Source: an uncultured Clostridia bacterium
GTDB taxonomy: Bacteria > Bacillota_A > Clostridia > Peptostreptococcales > Anaerovoracaceae
Reading direction: 5' to 3'
Length of the DNA stretch: 9,466 bases
NCBI GenBank assembly: GCA_946645735.1
Contig: CAMPCK010000019.1
Location: forward strand, 1 to 9,466
How positions within the stretch are numbered: the first letter of the stretch is position 1; every line of letters begins with the position of its first letter. Of the stretch, positions 290 to 9,466 are shown one piece after another. Made by a program: the position numbers and the translations under genes. Below the pieces are notes generated by a model, which saw only the letters and a program-made list of their open reading frames with translations, was not told where the DNA came from and made no database searches.

Positions 290-2197
290 ATGGATTTGAG
301 TGAAATGCTGCAAAACATTACAGGCACATTACAGGATATCCTTCAAGGGGGAGGGATTCTCAATGCTGTACTGCGCCCTATTTTTGTGATACTGGCAGTG
401 TACATTCTGATAAGATGTATACTGTCTCTTGTGAGATCCAAGAATCCCGCCGAAGTGTGGGCATATCTCAAGGTCACAAGATACAGAGAGGAGCCTGACG
501 GAAGCGTCGTAAAGGTATCGGAGACCAATGAACCACTGACTCATTGGGAAAACGTCATAGGAAGAGCCAGATCCTGCGATATAACCGTCAATGACAAGAA
601 CCTCTCGAGAAACCACGGCCTTCTCATAAGGGATGAAGACGGCACCTGGACCTTCAGGGATCTGGGATCCGTAAACGGCACCTGGCTGAATTCAAGCGAA
701 GAAAACGACGCAGGCTACAAGGAATTCAGGTCCAGGGGAAGAAGCGACAGAAACGCTTATCTGGATTATGCCATGTCCCTGGAAAAGCCTGATGAACACA
801 GAAACGAGTTTGTAAAGATATCCAAGGGAAAGGGAGTCGAAGCTCCGGCCATAGAACTGGAGTATGGAGATATAATCAGAGCAGGGTATACGGAATTCGT
901 ACTTCTGCCCATTTCTCTTGAAGAAAAGAACAATAACGAGAAACTGAGAAAGGCAGACACCGAAGTAATGTCTGCAGGGCCTGCCATGGCAGCCCTTACG
1001 CTTTTTCAGCTCATGACCTTCCTCCAGCTCTGGATGAGCAAGGGAGAGGAGCACGTCATAAGCATATTCACGGCCTTCGCCGGACTGATCGCCATAGAAT
1101 GGGTATATTACCTGATCCTCCGGGTTACGAGAAGAGCAGCCTTCGAGATGGAGATCATAGCCTTCTTCCTTTCGACTTTGAGCCTGGCTGTGGTTGCGTC
1201 GAAGTCGCCGGATGCCTTGGTCAAGCAGATGACATGTATAGGCATAGGCGTTGCCTGCATGTTCATCATGTGCATATATTTAAGGGATCTCGAGAGATCC
1301 AAGCTTATCCGAATGGTACTGGTAGTGGGTTCAGTGATTCTTTTCATTCTGAATCTTGCTTTGGCTGCAACCACCTTCGGAGCCAGAAACTGGCTCAGTA
1401 TCGGAGGTTTCTCCTTCCAGCCCTCAGAACTTGTGAAGGTGGCATTTATATGGGTAGGAGCAGCGACTCTGGATGAGCTTTTCAGAAAAAAGAATCTTTA
1501 CCTGTTCATGCTTTTCTCCCTGTTCTGCTTCGGATGTCTGGGGCTTATGGGAGACTTCGGAACAGCTATCATATTCTTTGTTACATACCTTGTAATTTCC
1601 TTCCTGAGATCGGGCGATCTGTCAAAGCTGATCCTCCTGGTAGGAGCAGCGGCAGCAGGCGGATTCCTTATCCTCAAGTTCAAGCCATACATAGCTGCCA
1701 GGTTCGCCACCTGGATGCACGTGTGGGATCCGGAGCTTGTGGATGCAGCAGGATTCCAGCAGTCGAGGACACTGTCGGCATCAGCTTCCGGCGGACTTCT
1801 GGGAGTAGGCGCGGGCAGAGGCTGGCTGTCAGAGGTCTTTGCAGCTGACATGGACCTGGTCTTCGGAATGCTCATAGAAGAGTGGGGGCTTATAATCGCA
1901 TGCCTTGCGGTGCTCTCAATCGTCACCCTTGCGTTTTTTGCAGTAAGGTCCATAACATCCGGCAGGTCGACCTTCTACACCATCGGCGCCTGCGGAGCCA
2001 CATCCATGCTGGTATTCCAGACCATGCTGAACGTCTTCGGATGCACGGATATACTTCCCTTCACGGGAGTGACTTTCCCCTTCGTTTCCCACGGAGGAAC
2101 TTCCATGATCGTATCCTGGGCGCTCCTGGCCTTCCTCAAATCATCTGATACGAGACTGCATGCCAGTCTTGCGGTGAAAGGAGGGAGCAGGAAATGA
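290..2197 (+). CDS. rodA: FHA domain-RodA (SEDS family) fusion, peptidoglycan polymerase
   Basis: SEDS proteins polymerise lipid II into glycan strands in the membrane and work with a class B PBP. Residues 24-48 are a membrane anchor. An FHA domain follows at about 56-208, with its phosphothreonine-binding signatures GR (91-92), SRNH (106-109) and NGT (129-131), and a closing strand LEYGDIIRAG (190-199). Between NGT and that strand sits an extra charged stretch of about 55 residues (134-188). From about 228 a polytopic SEDS domain begins, with GARNWL...FQPSE (364-380), FQQSRTLSASASGGLLGVG (489-507), MDLVFGMLIEEWG (521-533, with D522 at the position of the catalytic Asp of RodA) and FTGVTFPFVSHGGTS (591-605). 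Five hydrophobic segments precede GARNW instead of the usual three, as in mycobacterial RodA. Parity puts the FHA domain in the cytoplasm. I infer that it is equivalent to FhaB fused to RodA, controlled by a Ser/Thr kinase outside this window. FtsW or SpoVE is less likely, given the PbpA-like neighbour. Confidence 0.9.
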   Translation: MDLSEMLQNITGTLQDILQGGGILNAVLRPIFVILAVYILIRCILSLVRSKNPAEVWAYLKVTRYREEPDGSVVKVSETNEPLTHWENVIGRARSCDITVNDKNLSRNHGLLIRDEDGTWTFRDLGSVNGTWLNSSEENDAGYKEFRSRGRSDRNAYLDYAMSLEKPDEHRNEFVKISKGKGVEAPAIELEYGDIIRAGYTEFVLLPISLEEKNNNEKLRKADTEVMSAGPAMAALTLFQLMTFLQLWMSKGEEHVISIFTAFAGLIAIEWVYYLILRVTRRAAFEMEIIAFFLSTLSLAVVASKSPDALVKQMTCIGIGVACMFIMCIYLRDLERSKLIRMVLVVGSVILFILNLALAATTFGARNWLSIGGFSFQPSELVKVAFIWVGAATLDELFRKKNLYLFMLFSLFCFGCLGLMGDFGTAIIFFVTYLVISFLRSGDLSKLILLVGAAAAGGFLILKFKPYIAARFATWMHVWDPELVDAAGFQQSRTLSASASGGLLGVGAGRGWLSEVFAADMDLVFGMLIEEWGLIIACLAVLSIVTLAFFAVRSITSGRSTFYTIGACGATSMLVFQTMLNVFGCTDILPFTGVTFPFVSHGGTSMIVSWALLAFLKSSDTRLHASLAVKGGSRK

Positions 2198-3504
2198 AGA
2201 AACTTGAAGGAAGATCTCTCATCTGTCTTCTTCTGATAATCGCCATGATGGCAGGCCTTGTATATTTCGTGGTAAGGCTTGAAATGAAGGGCTCAGAATG
2301 GGCGGGATTCTATGCCAACAAGCATATATTCTCAAACGGTGTTCTCAAAGCAGGAGAACTCAGAGACCGTGACGGAGATACACTTCTCGAGTACGATTCC
2401 GAGGGAGCTCACTACACCGGTGAGGAGTATCAGAGAAGGGCAGTGTCCCACGTAACGGGAGATATAGGAAATAACATATCGACAGGTGCAAACGTAGTCT
2501 TCAGAGCCCGCCTTGTGGGGTACAATCCCATAACAGGTACGGAAGGATTCCTGGGTCTTAAGGGCGGAAAAGTAGACCTAAGCATTGACAGGGACATAAA
2601 TGAAACCGCATATGAAGCCATAGGAAACAGAAATGGTTTTGTATGTGTATATGACTACACCACGGGAGACATCATAACCCTTGTAAGCACCCCCACGGTG
2701 GATCCCCAGGATCCCAATGCATCATCCTATGCGTCATCCGGCGCCTACAGCAACAAGGTCTTCAGCCAGACCTTCGCTCCCGGATCCACTTTCAAGATGC
2801 TGACGACAGCTGCGGCCCTTGAGAATATAGATGATCTCAGAAGCCGCACCTTCACCTGCACGGGATCCGTGGATATCGGTACCGGCAGGGTGAACTGCCC
2901 GGAAGTCCACGGCACCATGACCTTTGATGAAGCTCTTGCACACTCCTGCAACTGCGTCTTCGGACAGCTTGCAGTTGAACTTGGGCCTTCAACCATGAAG
3001 GAATACACCGAGAAGATGGGCTTCACCTCGAGCTATGATATAAACGGCATCAAGACAAAAGAGGGATCATTTAACTACGATCTTGATGAGATAGACCTGG
3101 CCTGGGCTGGCATAGGTCAGTCAGAGGATGAGGTAAATCCTGTATCCCTTATGGTATATATGGGAGCCATTGCAGGAGGAGGTTCAGCCAAAGAACCTTC
3201 GATCCTTAAGGGTAAATCCTCCGGAAATGTTCATCTTCTGGACAGCGACACAGCATCAGACCTTAAGGAACTCATGAGAAACAACGTAATCACCAATTAC
3301 GGAGATGACAACTTCCCGGGACTTTCCATGGGAGCCAAGACCGGAACTGCCGAAACGGCCTCAGGCGGAGACAACTGCTGGATGGCAGGCTTTAGCGGCA
3401 ATTATGCCTTCGTGGTAATGATAGAAAAGGGCGTATCCGGAATCAGAACAGCCGGACCCGTTGCCAATACAGTACTTCAAAAAATCTTAGAGGAGAGTAA
3501 CTGA
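2194..3504 (+). CDS. pbpA: PbpA-like class B penicillin-binding protein (transpeptidase)
   Basis: This is a peptidoglycan DD-transpeptidase that cross-links the strands made by its SEDS partner; the catalytic domain lies outside the membrane. An N-terminal anchor helix (about 8-28) is followed by a short linker with ELRDRDGDTLLE (55-66), the reduced form of the RGxIxDRNG motif. The transpeptidase domain carries all three catalytic motifs: SxxK as S198-T-F-K201 in FAPGSTFK, SxN as S251-C-N253, and KTG at 382-384 in GAKTGTAE. At 436 residues it is compact and lacks the large N-terminal pedestal of PBP2/FtsI, as in actinobacterial PbpA. Its ATG overlaps the rodA stop by 4 nt (ATGA), and AAAGGAGG at 2177-2184 lies 9 nt upstream, so translational coupling is likely. 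This fits a 1:1 polymerase/transpeptidase complex. Assignment to the PbpA group rests on architecture and gene order. Confidence 0.92.
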   Translation: MKKLEGRSLICLLLIIAMMAGLVYFVVRLEMKGSEWAGFYANKHIFSNGVLKAGELRDRDGDTLLEYDSEGAHYTGEEYQRRAVSHVTGDIGNNISTGANVVFRARLVGYNPITGTEGFLGLKGGKVDLSIDRDINETAYEAIGNRNGFVCVYDYTTGDIITLVSTPTVDPQDPNASSYASSGAYSNKVFSQTFAPGSTFKMLTTAAALENIDDLRSRTFTCTGSVDIGTGRVNCPEVHGTMTFDEALAHSCNCVFGQLAVELGPSTMKEYTEKMGFTSSYDINGIKTKEGSFNYDLDEIDLAWAGIGQSEDEVNPVSLMVYMGAIAGGGSAKEPSILKGKSSGNVHLLDSDTASDLKELMRNNVITNYGDDNFPGLSMGAKTGTAETASGGDNCWMAGFSGNYAFVVMIEKGVSGIRTAGPVANTVLQKILEESN

Positions 3505-4275: not shown

Positions 4276-5235
4276 ATGAAAGAGATATTTGTAAAAGATC
4301 TGAAAAAGGACATGGAGATAATCGACTTCTTCATGGTCAAATCCATTGCTGTCAAAACAGGTTCCACCGGTAAGCCCTATCTGGACGTTACCCTGGGGGA
4401 TATGACCGGCGAGATCAACGGCAAAAAATGGGACGTGGGATCATCCGATCATCTCCTTAAGGAAAAGGATATCGTTAAGATCATCGCTCATGTAACGGAG
4501 TTCAATTCACAGCTCCAGCTTAAGATCCAGAGAATCAGGAAGGCAGTTCCCGAAAGCAATCCCGACGATGTCATGAATATGAAGGACTTCGTCAAAGCCG
4601 CTCCTGAACCGCCCCTTGTAATGTACGGCTACATTATGGAAGTGGCCCTCAACATGAAGGATGAGGATCTTAAGAGACTCTGCGTAAGGGTACTTGAGGA
4701 CAACAGGGATAAGCTCATGTATTATCCCGCTGCATCCAAAAACCACCATGCTGAGCTGGGAGGACTGCTCTATCACATGAAGCGCATGCTCATGAACGGA
4801 GAGAGGGTATGCGAGGTATATACCAACCTCAACCGCGATCTGGTCCTTGCAGGAGTCATCATGCATGACATGCAGAAAATATTTGAGATAGACGCAGACA
4901 CCGACGGCATGGCATCGGGCTATTCCTTTGAAGGACAGATGCTGGGCCATCTCGTCATGGGCGTAAAATATATGGACAGCCTTGCACTGGAACTGGGATT
5001 CTCTGCTGAAAAGCGCATAATGATGGAGCACATGATACTTTCCCATCACTATGAACCCGAATACGGCAGCCCCAAGAAACCGCTGTTCCCTGAGGCTGAG
5101 GTACTGCATTATCTGGACATTCTTGATGCCAGAATGTATGACATGGAAGAAGCACTTAAAGTAACGGAGCCCGGCGGCTTCAGCGACCGCATCTGGACCC
5201 TGGACAATAGAAGGATATACAATCCCGAGAAATAA
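4276..5235 (+). CDS. OB-fold/HD domain protein, YhaM-like 3'-5' exoribonuclease family
   Basis: The 319 residues match the length and layout of YhaM, a Firmicute 3'-5' exoribonuclease. An N-terminal OB-fold for nucleic acid binding spans about 12-90 (from IIDFFMVKSIAVKTG through IVKIIAHVTEFNSQLQLKIQRI). An HD metal-dependent phosphohydrolase domain spans about 150-290. Candidate metal ligands are H157/H158 in NHHAELGGLLYH, H167, the HD pair H197-D198 in VIMHDMQKI, H225 in GQMLGHLVMG, H257/H258 in ILSHHYEPEYG, and D281/D284 in LHYLDILDARM. The usual HDIGK reads HDMQK here, but the HD pair is intact. The gene follows nadE by 23 nt with AAAGGA at 4265-4270 and a 5-nt spacing. A role in trimming RNA 3' ends is inferred from the family. 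A nucleotidase or other HD hydrolase cannot be excluded. Confidence 0.82.
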   Translation: MKEIFVKDLKKDMEIIDFFMVKSIAVKTGSTGKPYLDVTLGDMTGEINGKKWDVGSSDHLLKEKDIVKIIAHVTEFNSQLQLKIQRIRKAVPESNPDDVMNMKDFVKAAPEPPLVMYGYIMEVALNMKDEDLKRLCVRVLEDNRDKLMYYPAASKNHHAELGGLLYHMKRMLMNGERVCEVYTNLNRDLVLAGVIMHDMQKIFEIDADTDGMASGYSFEGQMLGHLVMGVKYMDSLALELGFSAEKRIMMEHMILSHHYEPEYGSPKKPLFPEAEVLHYLDILDARMYDMEEALKVTEPGGFSDRIWTLDNRRIYNPEK

Positions 5236-6521: not shown

Positions 6522-8389
6522 GAAATGCCAAAATCACAAAGATAAGTCAGGTCACCCCGGAGGTGACCTTACTTTTACGTGGAATGGGATTTTCTGACTA
6601 CTACATCCTTAAACTCTATGAGGCCTATGGAAATGCAGCTCCTGAGATGATAAAGGCCGATCCTTATTTTCTTCTGGAGGATTTCAGCCGCCTGGGATTC
6701 AAACGGGTGGATGAGATCGCTTCATCCATAGGCATAAAATCCGATGATCCGAGAAGACTCAAGGCCGTAATAAGGTTTGTCCTCGGAGTTTATGTGGGAG
6801 AGGGGAATACCTATGCTCCGAGAAAGGAGCTTGTTGAGAAGTGCTCGGCTCTGCTTGAGGTTTCCCGTGAGATCCTTGAGGACTGCCTTGAGACCATGAT
6901 CTTTGAAGGAATCCTTCACTGTGTCACCGTCGATGGGGAAGACGCCATATATTTCTACGGATACTACAGAGCAGAGAACCGCGTGGCTTCATCCATAGCC
7001 CACATGGCGGACCAGGAAGCAAGAGAACTCAAGAGTATCGTGGCTTCACCCAAGAGCTTCATAAAGAAATTCGAAGAGGCCAGGGGAATAGAGCTGTCTG
7101 AGGATCAGAAGCGTGCCGTTATAAGCTGCCTTGCCAGCGGAGCCACCATTATAACGGGAGGCCCCGGTACCGGTAAAACTACGATTCTTAACGCCATCAT
7201 ATACATACTTGAAGCATCGGGTCAGAAGGTTGCAGTCTCTGCTCCCACTGGAAGAGCTGCCAAGAGAATAATGGAGACCGGAGGGCACTTCGCCCAGACC
7301 GTTCACAGGCTTCTGGAATATTACTATGATGAGACAAGAAAGGCCATGTGCTTTGCAAAAAACGAGGAAGACCCTCTGGACTACGACTGCGTGATCGTGG
7401 ATGAGTCTTCCATGATGGATATAATGCTCATTAACGCACTTCTTGCTGCAATGAAGCCAGGAAGCCGCCTTGTCCTTGTGGGAGACAGCAGCCAGCTTCC
7501 TTCCGTGGGACCCGGAAATGTTCTCAGCGACCTCATCGGAAGTGAGTATATAAATACCATCACCCTGAACAAGATCTACCGTCAGGAGAGCGAGAGCAGC
7601 ATAGTTCTCAACGCTCACAGGATCAATCACGGGGATTATCCTGTTTTTAATGCTGATGACAGTGACATGACGCTCTACAGACTTGACAGCCAGAGAGACA
7701 TCAGGGACAAGATATGTGAAATAGTAAAGAATTATGATCCGGAGACCGTTCAGGTGCTGACTCCCACTAAGAAGGGCATCCTGGGGGCTCTTGAGATGAA
7801 CACAAGTCTTCAGGAAGTTTTCAATCCGCCTGAAGATGACAAGGTGGAGCTCAAATTCGGAAAGAAGGTCTTCAGGGAAGGGGACCGGGTCATGCAGATA
7901 AAAAACGATTATCAGCTGGGCTTCAAGAGAGAGCGCCATGATATCTACGGAGGAGACGGTAAGGATCCCGGATATGAAAGAGAAGACGGCAAAGGAATAT
8001 TTAACGGTGAGATCGGCACGGTATTCGGAATAGACAAGGAAGCCAAGACCATGACCGTGGTCTTCGATGATGACCGCTTCGGAAAGACCTATGGCAGGAG
8101 ATTCGCCCTCTACGAATACACTAAGCTGGATGAGCTTGAACAGGCTTTCTGCGTTACAGTCCATAAGAGCCAGGGAAGCGAGTATCCTGTAGTTATAATT
8201 CCGGTATCCTGGTTCCCGCCGGTCCTTGCCACCAGGTCTCTCATATACACGGCAATAACCAGGGGGAAGAACAAGGTCATTCTGGTGGGAAATCCGGACT
8301 ATCTCAACGCCATGGTGGATAACGACCGCTCAAGCGAAAGGCTCTCCGGCCTTAAGGACAGACTTATGAGCCTGTATAACCGGGTATAG
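6509..8389 (+). CDS. recD2: RecD2-type ATP-dependent DNA helicase (superfamily 1), short form
   Basis: RecD2 is a 5'-3' DNA helicase that acts without RecBC in repair and replication-fork maintenance. The helix-hairpin-helix-like N-terminal region (about 10-80, with the RLGFKRVDEIASSIGI segment) is followed by a helicase core with all motifs: Walker A TGGPGTGKTT (216-225), Ia SAPTGRAAKRI (244-254), Walker B VIVDESSM (295-302), III VLVGDSSQLPSVGPGNVL (322-339), YRQ (357-359), V VTVHKSQGSEYPVVIIP (549-565) and VI LIYTAITRGK (578-587). At 626 residues it is shorter than the 700-800 usual for RecD2, because it begins near the HhH region and lacks the N-terminal OB-like domain. About 25 charged, Gly-rich residues (471-496) are inserted between NDYQL and GIFNGEIG. 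The ATG overlaps the preceding gene by 13 nt, with AGGAG at 6500-6504. Confidence 0.92.
   Translation: MDTLGNAKITKISQVTPEVTLLLRGMGFSDYYILKLYEAYGNAAPEMIKADPYFLLEDFSRLGFKRVDEIASSIGIKSDDPRRLKAVIRFVLGVYVGEGNTYAPRKELVEKCSALLEVSREILEDCLETMIFEGILHCVTVDGEDAIYFYGYYRAENRVASSIAHMADQEARELKSIVASPKSFIKKFEEARGIELSEDQKRAVISCLASGATIITGGPGTGKTTILNAIIYILEASGQKVAVSAPTGRAAKRIMETGGHFAQTVHRLLEYYYDETRKAMCFAKNEEDPLDYDCVIVDESSMMDIMLINALLAAMKPGSRLVLVGDSSQLPSVGPGNVLSDLIGSEYINTITLNKIYRQESESSIVLNAHRINHGDYPVFNADDSDMTLYRLDSQRDIRDKICEIVKNYDPETVQVLTPTKKGILGALEMNTSLQEVFNPPEDDKVELKFGKKVFREGDRVMQIKNDYQLGFKRERHDIYGGDGKDPGYEREDGKGIFNGEIGTVFGIDKEAKTMTVVFDDDRFGKTYGRRFALYEYTKLDELEQAFCVTVHKSQGSEYPVVIIPVSWFPPVLATRSLIYTAITRGKNKVILVGNPDYLNAMVDNDRSSERLSGLKDRLMSLYNRV
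6544..6574 (+). other. Strong RNA hairpin in the first codons of recD2
   Basis: AGGTCACC (6549-6556) and GGTGACCT (6562-6569) form a perfect 8-bp stem with the loop CCGGA. After a single C/T mismatch, AAGT (6544-6547) pairs with ACTT (6571-6574), adding 4 bp. The stem begins 35 nt after the first base of the recD2 start codon and leaves the ribosome binding site free. Part of the symmetry comes from the encoded Val-Thr-Pro-Glu-Val-Thr repeat, so a regulatory role is only a possibility. A short T-rich run follows (ACTTTTAC), which is weak for a terminator. Confidence 0.45.
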
Positions 8390-8393
8390 ATCG

Positions 8394-9203
8394 TCAGAGA
8401 TCCTTGAGAAACTCTTCGTCGTCGCGGCTTCTGAAGGAACCTCTGAGATAATAGTTTCCCGTGGCAAGGCAGATGAAATGGACTTCTTTTGCGCCTGCCT
8501 CCTTGAGAAGCCTTGCGCATCTGTCGGCGGTGGCTCCTGTTGTCAGGATATCGTCAACGATGAGAACGGAGGCATCCCTTATGCGGGAGGCATATGCGGG
8601 ATCAAGAAGAAAGGCTCCCTCGAGGTTGGAGAAGCGCTCCTCACCGGACACACTTCTCTGGGCGTGGGTCGGTATCTTTCTTCTGAGACAGCCGGGGAGG
8701 TGCCTTATCTTAAGCCCATGACGGGCATTTAAGCGAAGAGTCAGCTCCTGAGATATGAGTGCGGCCTGATTGAAGCCGCGCTTTTTTCTTTTGCTTGAAT
8801 GTATGGGAACGGGGACGATGAAATCAATGGAAGACAGTATTTTCATGGCTTCCTCATCAGATGTGAGCCTGTCCTCCATAATCATGGAAATAGGTCTCGC
8901 CATGAAAGTTTTTTTGTTGTATTTGAGATCGAAAATAAGTCTTTTGGAATGGAGGCCGTAGACCATGCAGCTCATGACTGAGTCAAGATATCCGGTCCTT
9001 CCGCTGTGCCTGCGTTCTTCTTCGAGATCTATGGTGATGTGACCCCAGTTTATGGCTGCCATGCACTGGTCGCACAGACAGTAGGGCCTGGTAAGATCGA
9101 TGTATTTTCCGCAGCAGATGCAGTAGGTCCCCATGGGGAAGAGTAGCTGGAGGATCTTTTCCAAAAAAATATGGATGCGTGAGGTTCCTGAAAGGTAATA
9201 CAT
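8394..9203 (-). CDS. comF: ComF family phosphoribosyltransferase-like protein
   Basis: ComF/ComFC (GntX-type) proteins join a small zinc-binding module to a type I phosphoribosyltransferase domain and are linked to DNA uptake in competent bacteria. The zinc module has C28-x2-C31 and C44-x2-C47, with additional C30 and C42. Family signatures follow: VPVPIHSSKRKKRGFNQA (130-147), AQRSVSGEERFSNLEGAF (181-198) and the PRPP-binding loop VLIVDDILTTGAT (213-225) with D217-D218. Its length of 269 residues is slightly above the usual 220-245, because of the first 20-25 residues and a charged tail. The start at 9203 is supported by AAAGG read on the minus strand, 7 nt upstream. A minus-strand promoter lies at 9239-9267. 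The stop is 4 nt from the recD2 stop, tail to tail. No comFA or other competence gene is in the window, so a role in transformation is not shown. Confidence 0.92.
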   Translation of the reverse strand: MYYLSGTSRIHIFLEKILQLLFPMGTYCICCGKYIDLTRPYCLCDQCMAAINWGHITIDLEEERRHSGRTGYLDSVMSCMVYGLHSKRLIFDLKYNKKTFMARPISMIMEDRLTSDEEAMKILSSIDFIVPVPIHSSKRKKRGFNQAALISQELTLRLNARHGLKIRHLPGCLRRKIPTHAQRSVSGEERFSNLEGAFLLDPAYASRIRDASVLIVDDILTTGATADRCARLLKEAGAKEVHFICLATGNYYLRGSFRSRDDEEFLKDL

Positions 9204-9238
9204 AAGGGTTCCTTTCTATCCCGTACATCCTTAAGTGA

Positions 9239-9267
9239 AGTATAACTCAGGAAAATATTTCATACAA
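9239..9267 (-). promoter_or_regulatory. Predicted sigma-A promoter of comF
   Basis: On the minus strand, TTGTAT (complement of 9262-9267) and TATACT (complement of 9239-9244) are separated by exactly 17 nt. Transcription would start near 9232, giving a leader of roughly 28 nt that contains the comF ribosome binding site. Confidence 0.65.
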
Positions 9268-9274
9268 TATTTAG

Positions 9275-9295
9275 TGTGAAAAGATTATGTGAAAA
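9275..9295 (+). repeat. Direct repeat TGTGAAAA upstream of the ncRNA promoter
   Basis: TGTGAAAA occurs at 9275-9282 and again at 9288-9295, with start points 13 nt apart, between the divergent comF and ncRNA promoters. The second copy ends 20 nt before the -35 of the ncRNA promoter. It could be an operator, an A-rich UP element or chance in A/T-rich DNA. Confidence 0.35.
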
Positions 9296-9315
9296 TTGTT
9301 TTATACAACTGTCAC

Positions 9316-9344
9316 TTGATAGTTTACTGCGCAGGTGATATAAT
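9316..9344 (+). promoter_or_regulatory. Near-consensus sigma-A promoter of the candidate ncRNA
   Basis: TTGATA (9316-9321) and TATAAT (9339-9344) are separated by 17 nt, with TG at 9336-9337 forming an extended -10. This is the strongest promoter in the window. The expected start is around 9350-9352, in the run of A residues just before GCGATCC. Such strength with no coding gene downstream fits an abundant stable RNA. Confidence 0.85.
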
Positions 9345-9350
9345 AAAGAA

Positions 9351-9466
9351 AAAGCGATCCGGGTCTGTGGTTGCAAATCCAGGCCAGGCACGGGCAAAGG
9401 GATCCACGTAAGCAGCTGAAGAAGAGTAGGCTGTGAGCATGGCGTGCTTTAGAAGTAAGTCCTCCG
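9351..9466 (+). ncRNA. Candidate structured ncRNA, 5' part; possible raiA-motif RNA (3' end outside window)
   Basis: About 116 nt downstream of a very strong promoter contain no convincing reading frame with a ribosome binding site, and are more G/C-rich than the intergenic DNA before them. Helices visible by eye are GGTCTGTG (9362-9369) with CCAGGCC (9379-9385, one bulge, one G-U), GATCC (9356-9360) with GGATC (9400-9404), AGGCACG (9386-9392) with CGTGCTT (9443-9449, one G-U), and CAGCT (9413-9417) with GGCTG (9429-9433). The second and third together would make a pseudoknot. The raiA-motif RNA, an abundant structured RNA of Firmicutes and Actinobacteria found near raiA/hpf and comF genes, is the leading candidate from context. 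I cannot match its consensus from memory. It does not resemble tmRNA, RNase P RNA or a tRNA. A leader of a downstream gene is also possible. Confidence 0.55.

Follow-up and report, generated by a model that had tools for sequence, protein, structure and literature searches.

The raiA RNA is an abundant, structured bacterial RNA that has been reported in more than 2,500 species and whose molecular function is unsolved; its high abundance and its effects on growth phase and sporulation are known from other species. Under the name ModT, it is described as a trans-acting RNA whose abundance is said to rival that of rRNA, and complementation in trans in C. difficile and C. acetobutylicum is taken there to rule out a cis-acting riboswitch (PMC11706538). 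According to the same report, its commonest neighbours are comFC (74%) and raiA genes (66%), with varying orientation and distance; the C. difficile RNA is followed by a gene for a PTS antiterminator and has two isoforms, both ending at terminators, and a terminator near the 3' end of the RNA was predicted for three clostridia, C. acetobutylicum not being one of them (PMC11706538). Other accounts describe raiA RNA as often lying hundreds of nucleotides from the downstream ORF (PMC11477304), and set it apart from riboswitches as being often far from genes and having no downstream expression platform (PMC11477304, PMC11751092).

The window, i.e., the whole stretch of 9,466 nucleotides analysed here, ends in the middle of such an RNA. 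When its last 267 bases were searched with an E-value threshold, the raiA covariance model (RF03072, model positions 1–109 of 209) matched positions 9354–9466 of the forward strand with 81.7 bits (E 1.7e-20), and the match was flagged as cut at its 3' end. At Rfam gathering thresholds nothing was reported in the window, where the score lies below the 101.3 bits set for RF03072. The reason is that the end of the window truncates the RNA: relative L088, when shortened to the same base, scored 78.0 bits, compared with 123.2 bits for the same RNA intact in L001, and the intact copies in the five closest loci (see below) scored 123–135 bits. We regard it as virtually certain that this is a raiA (ModT) RNA gene, of which the window contains the 5' half; the RNA is an ordinary member of the family, and its identity is already known. 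The original prediction, which had proposed a raiA-motif RNA and suggested running the raiA, 6S, SRP and RNase P models, is thus borne out by the covariance-model match together with the L088 control, as well as by the hpf gene that comes next in the closest relatives and by a covarying pseudoknot. That the feature is a different RNA, such as 6S, SRP or RNase P RNA, or an unassigned one, has a negligible probability, because among the 4,227 Rfam families scanned the other three matches listed had E-values of at least 2.5. 6S, SRP and RNase P RNA gave no Rfam matches in the window and were ruled out.

Divergent from the RNA, on the reverse strand, is a gene for a phosphoribosyltransferase of the ComF family (8394–9203; Pfam Pribosyltran PF00156, E 2e-10), which we take to be comF. 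Its protein was used as a query against one genome per species, and 80 loci were returned. The five closest (L001–L005, 57–72% identity) are from Clostridiales/Bacillota MAGs, L002 and L004 being from the abomasum of water buffalo and goat, and RUG isolates among the closest relatives are presumably rumen genomes. raiA RNA was found above the Rfam cut-off in 12 of the 20 ComF loci scanned, including the five closest, in all seven genomes of the relatives' genus (hereafter the L001 genus), and as a match in 267 of 296 family genomes. Genomes G263, G220 and G235 have two raiA RNA matches each instead of one. In total, 118 raiA RNA loci were compared: 29 from the family search, 80 more (less one duplicate) that were taken from the best-scoring matches among those listed and lay mostly away from contig ends, and two further sets of 8 and 2 loci, with a downstream flank of about 1.5–2.5 kb at most per locus. 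At the level of the order, where 230 of 297 genomes matched above the cut-off, the 30 best-scoring loci, corresponding to 26 distinct ones, were used. In a plasmid search, the one match was to a 2.6-Mb Acetoanaerobium noterae record and covered 49% of the query.

Elsewhere in the window, the forward strand encodes an FtsW/RodA/SpoVE-type protein with an N-terminal FHA domain (290–2197), adjoined by a penicillin-binding transpeptidase gene (2194–3504), and a protein with an OB-fold, whose match is just under its cut-off, and an HD domain (4276–5235, forward strand). The latter presumably resembles YhaM-type exoribonucleases.

The raiA RNA gene has its own promoter, which is of the sigma-A type. 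The near-perfect promoter of the original prediction was found as described, with a -35 box TTGATA (9316–9321), a 17-nt spacer and an extended -10 element TGATATAAT (9336–9344, with TG at 9336–9337 and TATAAT at 9339–9344), all on the forward strand; it has 11 of 12 consensus matches and is the top of four sites listed in 8300–9466, where 1.5 sites are expected with the looser cut-off of the scan. In all seven L001-genus genomes TATAAT is identical, TTGA is kept, and so is the 17-nt spacing between them; therefore, the promoter is not a chance occurrence. The A-rich stretch AAAGAAAAA that follows (9345–9353, forward strand), also identical in the seven genomes, is at the likely transcript start: the Rfam model begins at 9354, and transcription probably begins a few nucleotides before this position. 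Consistent with the claim that the downstream stretch is noncoding, no ORF of at least 60 amino acids overlaps 9351–9466, and the seven short ORFs of at least 20 amino acids that overlap 9300–9466 on both strands reach 54 amino acids, the longest being open-ended.

The transcript had also been predicted to be highly folded, with helices implying a pseudoknot. By energy the first part fails, since the folding energy of the 116 nt is no better than that of shuffled sequences (z −0.04), and folding energy was rejected as a sign of structure; structure is instead supported through homology and covariation. The P3 hairpin (9383–9395, forward strand; GCC at 9383–9385, loop AGGCACG, GGC at 9393–9395) has its GCC/GGC stem at the same place in 108 of 110 RNAs, and the position of its loop agrees with the published structure, as far as its numbering of the first P3-loop base as A33 goes (PMC11751092). 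The loop (9386–9392) is one strand of the pseudoknot pk-1, the other being CGTGCTT (9443–9449, same strand). Both strands could be located in 110 of 119 RNAs, the other nine being dropped because of a mismatch in the flanking motif, and they covary across raiA RNAs: over 28 distinct pairs of strands, 95.4% of cells pair, whereas shuffling gives 80.4% on average and 86.2% at most, and all seven base pairs form in 23 of the 28. All seven also form in the window, so the implied pseudoknot is present. Further, the predicted fold contains a variable hairpin (9412–9434, forward strand; arms 9412–9417 and 9429–9434) whose arms change together within the genus, being GCAGCU/GGCUGU in the window, L085 and L086, GCGGUU/GACCGU in L087, and GUCCGG/CCGGAU in L083, L198 and L199; in L088 a single position is mismatched.

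The gene order in L001 is nucleotidyltransferase, recD2, reversed comF, RNA, hpf, cdaA and cdaR, with which the window agrees as far as it is visible; HPF, CdaA and CdaR (YbbR) were confirmed by Pfam in L001, and HPF also in L005. The RNA is divergent from comF in the five closest loci, as in the window. Among the 118 loci, comF precedes the RNA in the same orientation in 98, diverges from it in seven and was not found in 13, so that the divergent arrangement occurs in all seven L001-genus loci vs. none of the 111 others (13 of them without comF found). Within the flanks covered, hpf is downstream in 89 of the 118 loci. Again within these flanks, 70 of the 118 have cdaA past the RNA in the same orientation. 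Thus, both usual neighbours of raiA RNA are present, comF in the window and hpf as the next gene in the genus relatives, beyond the window, where the original prediction had suggested looking for it. An ORF with a ribosome-binding site soon after the RNA had been named there as a sign against raiA; such an ORF does follow in the closest relatives, but the identity stands, because the ORF is hpf, a usual neighbour of raiA RNA.

The distance to hpf is short in this genus. In the six L001-genus loci with enough sequence, the ATG of hpf is 23–27 nt past the RNA, and in the seventh (L085/L003), whose contig ends just after the ATG, the ribosome-binding site and start codon are the same; the gap contains a U-tract and the ribosome-binding site, and nothing else. 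By comparison, with starts placed by phmmer in 89 of the 118 loci, the gap is 61–1667 nt in the 83 non-genus family loci with a placed hpf start, and hpf this close to raiA RNA was found only in the L001 genus (seven genomes) among those examined. The RNA therefore occupies a 5'-UTR position near the hpf start codon in all seven genomes, as seen in the relatives, and it is plausible that the window species continues in the same manner. Of the 59 non-genus gaps no longer than 260 nt, 36 contain an exact TATAAT, compared with 7.3 on average and 14 at most after shuffling, and 33 contain TGnTATAAT; therefore, hpf often has its own promoter in these loci. None of the six gaps measured in the L001 genus contains a -10 element of 5/6 or better. 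Since a gap of 23–27 nt has no room for a promoter, the RNA promoter very probably also drives hpf, and with it cdaA and cdaR, in this genus.

Close ORFs are not confined to hpf. Of the 117 loci with enough downstream sequence, 16 have an ORF of at least 60 amino acids that lies no more than 60 nt past the RNA and has a motif resembling a ribosome-binding site; six of these ORFs are the hpf genes of the genus and ten, among the 111 non-genus loci, are other ORFs of varied kinds, not hpf. Unrelated ORFs of this sort were seen in L131, L081, L196, L172, L190 and others. Based on their first residues, the ORF 22 nt past the RNA in L131 presumably encodes pyruvate kinase, and those 40 and 32 nt past it in L118 and L192 presumably correspond to cdaA. 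With unrelated ORFs so close in 10 of 111 other loci, chance placement is as arguable as control, and the RNA could simply be a known raiA RNA next to which hpf came to lie by neutral rearrangement, with constitutive read-through expressing hpf. Its restriction to one genus would agree with this reading, as would the variation in neighbour order and distance described across bacteria (PMC11706538). However, free read-through from a strong promoter would supply a high level of a hibernation factor during growth, when control would be expected. We consider such neutrality unlikely, and the close ORFs elsewhere do not touch the geometry at the 3' end of the RNA, to which we now turn.

The 5' strand of the closing helix P1 is at 9354–9362 (forward strand, RF03072 alignment), and its 3' strand is seen in the relatives, where pairing of the 5' and 3' ends is predicted in all seven L001-genus genomes. 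The first 8 nt past the RNA contain at least five T in all seven genus loci vs. 15 of 111 others, and in all seven AAAGAAAAA is predicted to pair with this 3' U-tract, extending P1, with predicted energies of −16.6 to −17.9 kcal/mol for P1 including the A/U-tract. In the family as a whole, 64 of the 105 distinct loci have a P1 extension beyond the Rfam model that scores at least 8, compared with an average of 2.1 and a top value of 8 for swapped partners; it is 6–18 pairs long, and 12–16 pairs in 49 of the 64. The extensions of the L001 genus score 2–5.5, below this cut-off. Extensions past the RF03072 boundaries were seen in L185, L127, L110, L111 and others, and the RF03072 model may stop short in the family with extended P1. 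T residues are enriched where the extension ends: at least six T in 8 nt around its outer end occur in 24 of the 64 loci (shuffled mean 5.7, maximum 13), compared with 6 of 64 for the same window 19 nt further on, although this wider window spanning the extension end is post hoc, having been set after T-runs were seen to begin inside the extension. The stricter count, at least five T in the 8 nt just past the extension, gives 28 of 64 vs. 21.8 expected (maximum 35) and is not significant. We also tried a rule that the transcript starts at the end of P1 and found no support for it, as a -10 element is near the extension start in 27 of 64 loci with scattered spacing. In L164, the RNA is followed within a few bases by a second copy of its last bases, CAGCCGGACAGC, as if the P1 3' strand had been partly duplicated.

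The P1 extension, often with a U-tract, suggests that the RNA's own ends may form a terminator. We found a separate hairpin terminator within 70 nt in nine of the 92 short-form loci outside the genus, where shuffling gives 1.3 on average and 4 at most, in none of the seven long-form loci of the family set, five of which have the extension, and in none of six L001-genus loci. Taken together, 59 of the 92 short-form loci have an extended P1 and nine a hairpin, including five with both, and 29 have neither. Among the 26 distinct long-form loci of the order-level set, 21 have a separate hairpin terminator and none has an extension that reaches the cut-off. There seem, therefore, to be two ways to end raiA RNA, either by a separate hairpin or by the RNA's own ends, and C. 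acetobutylicum, where no terminator was predicted, would fit an RNA that ends through P1.

Taken together, we hypothesize that in the L001 genus the raiA RNA is a promoter-driven leader of hpf, in which P1 with its U-tract terminates transcription, and read-through leads into hpf-cdaA-cdaR; as a whole, we consider this explanation moderately probable. In this model, once the RNA has folded to completion, P1 with the A-tract at its start and the U-tract just after it would act as an intrinsic terminator, with the whole raiA RNA as its loop. Termination would release raiA RNA, which, by analogy with other species, might accumulate in compact form and act in trans on growth transitions, whereas read-through past P1 would yield an hpf-cdaA-cdaR mRNA. 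From the sequences, we infer that P1 and the U-tract decide between the two outcomes. The wider proposal, that in one Clostridia family raiA RNA ends its own transcription via the extended P1, and that in this genus its folding sets the balance between a trans-acting RNA and the expression of hpf and the c-di-AMP synthase, thus giving it dual cis and trans roles, is tentative, and we would not put it at even chances. Several points argue against the terminator model. The window lacks the 3' half of the RNA and hpf, both of which are drawn from relatives; the genus U-tract is short (4–6 U), and the arms of the stem are about 150 nt apart, both of which are unusual for an intrinsic terminator; the genus extension is weak, the order-level copies lack one, and the stricter T count is not significant, as mentioned above; close ORFs are not tied to hpf; and the complementation in trans of the ModT mutants was taken to speak against a cis riboswitch (PMC11706538).

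Alternatively, an RNase might cut one long transcript just past P1, leaving a stable raiA RNA and an hpf-cdaA-cdaR mRNA with no terminator involved. The short A/U-rich spacer between a strong stem and the ribosome-binding site would be suitable for such cleavage, and the lack of a separate hairpin in the six genus loci agrees with it, but a U-tract that directly adjoins P1 in all seven and the T enrichment at P1 ends in the family are terminator-like features for which cleavage has no need, and we regard this alternative as rather unlikely. Control of translation is a further alternative, in which the RNA would be a cis-acting riboswitch that hides the hpf ribosome-binding site, e.g., via CCUCC. 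The Rfam family is indeed typed as cis-reg/riboswitch, CCUCC is present in all seven L001-genus RNAs, and in some members, L198 for example, the site is hidden when the RNA is folded without constraints. However, 39 of the 111 other RNAs contain CCUCC as well, although none of their placed hpf starts is closer than 61 nt, and because it is this common masking by CCUCC was rated low; further, accessibility of the site varies among the seven folds, and the published mutants were complemented in trans, as reported for ModT (PMC11706538). A riboswitch of this kind is improbable in our judgement. In the folds of the seven genus RNAs, in which pseudoknots were ignored, no consistent antiterminator or site-hiding pairing was found, and P1 with the U-tract resembles a terminator. 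Our confidence in the terminator reading overlaps with that in its rivals, because all except the one invoking a different RNA share the raiA identity.

If P1 does act as a terminator, it would provide an easy readout of whether the RNA has folded or bound a ligand. With raiA RNA physically leading hpf, and c-di-AMP synthesis following, this genus amounts to a natural experiment, and makes a link between raiA RNA and ribosome hibernation directly testable.

Like raiA RNA, OLE, ROOL and GOLLD are large, conserved, structured bacterial RNAs, but they form homo-oligomers, whereas raiA RNA is a monomer in the comparison made by the same study (PMC12286853). A literature search, with Soares et al. 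2024 outside its scope, met no description of the hpf-leader arrangement or of the P1 extension, and as far as checked, the L001-genus arrangement and the self-terminating reading of P1 are undescribed variants. With the raiA/ModT RNA (RF03072) of C. difficile and C. acetobutylicum, the RNA studied here shares the sequence and structure model, the sigma-A promoter, the P3/pk-1 core and comF as a neighbour, and the hpf/raiA neighbour known from many species is shared with the L001-genus loci. The L001-genus relatives have a short form of 163–165 nt, compared with about 205–210 nt for the C. difficile and C. acetobutylicum RNA, and unlike the latter, they have a divergent comF, hpf only 23–27 nt away and no separate hairpin terminator found. 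Transcription attenuators and terminator-controlled leaders are likewise structured RNAs between a promoter and a ribosome-binding site, with a U-tract before the gene. The L001-genus leader resembles them in having a structured RNA and a U-tract ahead of the gene; by contrast, an alternative antiterminator pairing is only hypothetical here, and the stem closes a large RNA whose counterparts in other species act in trans.
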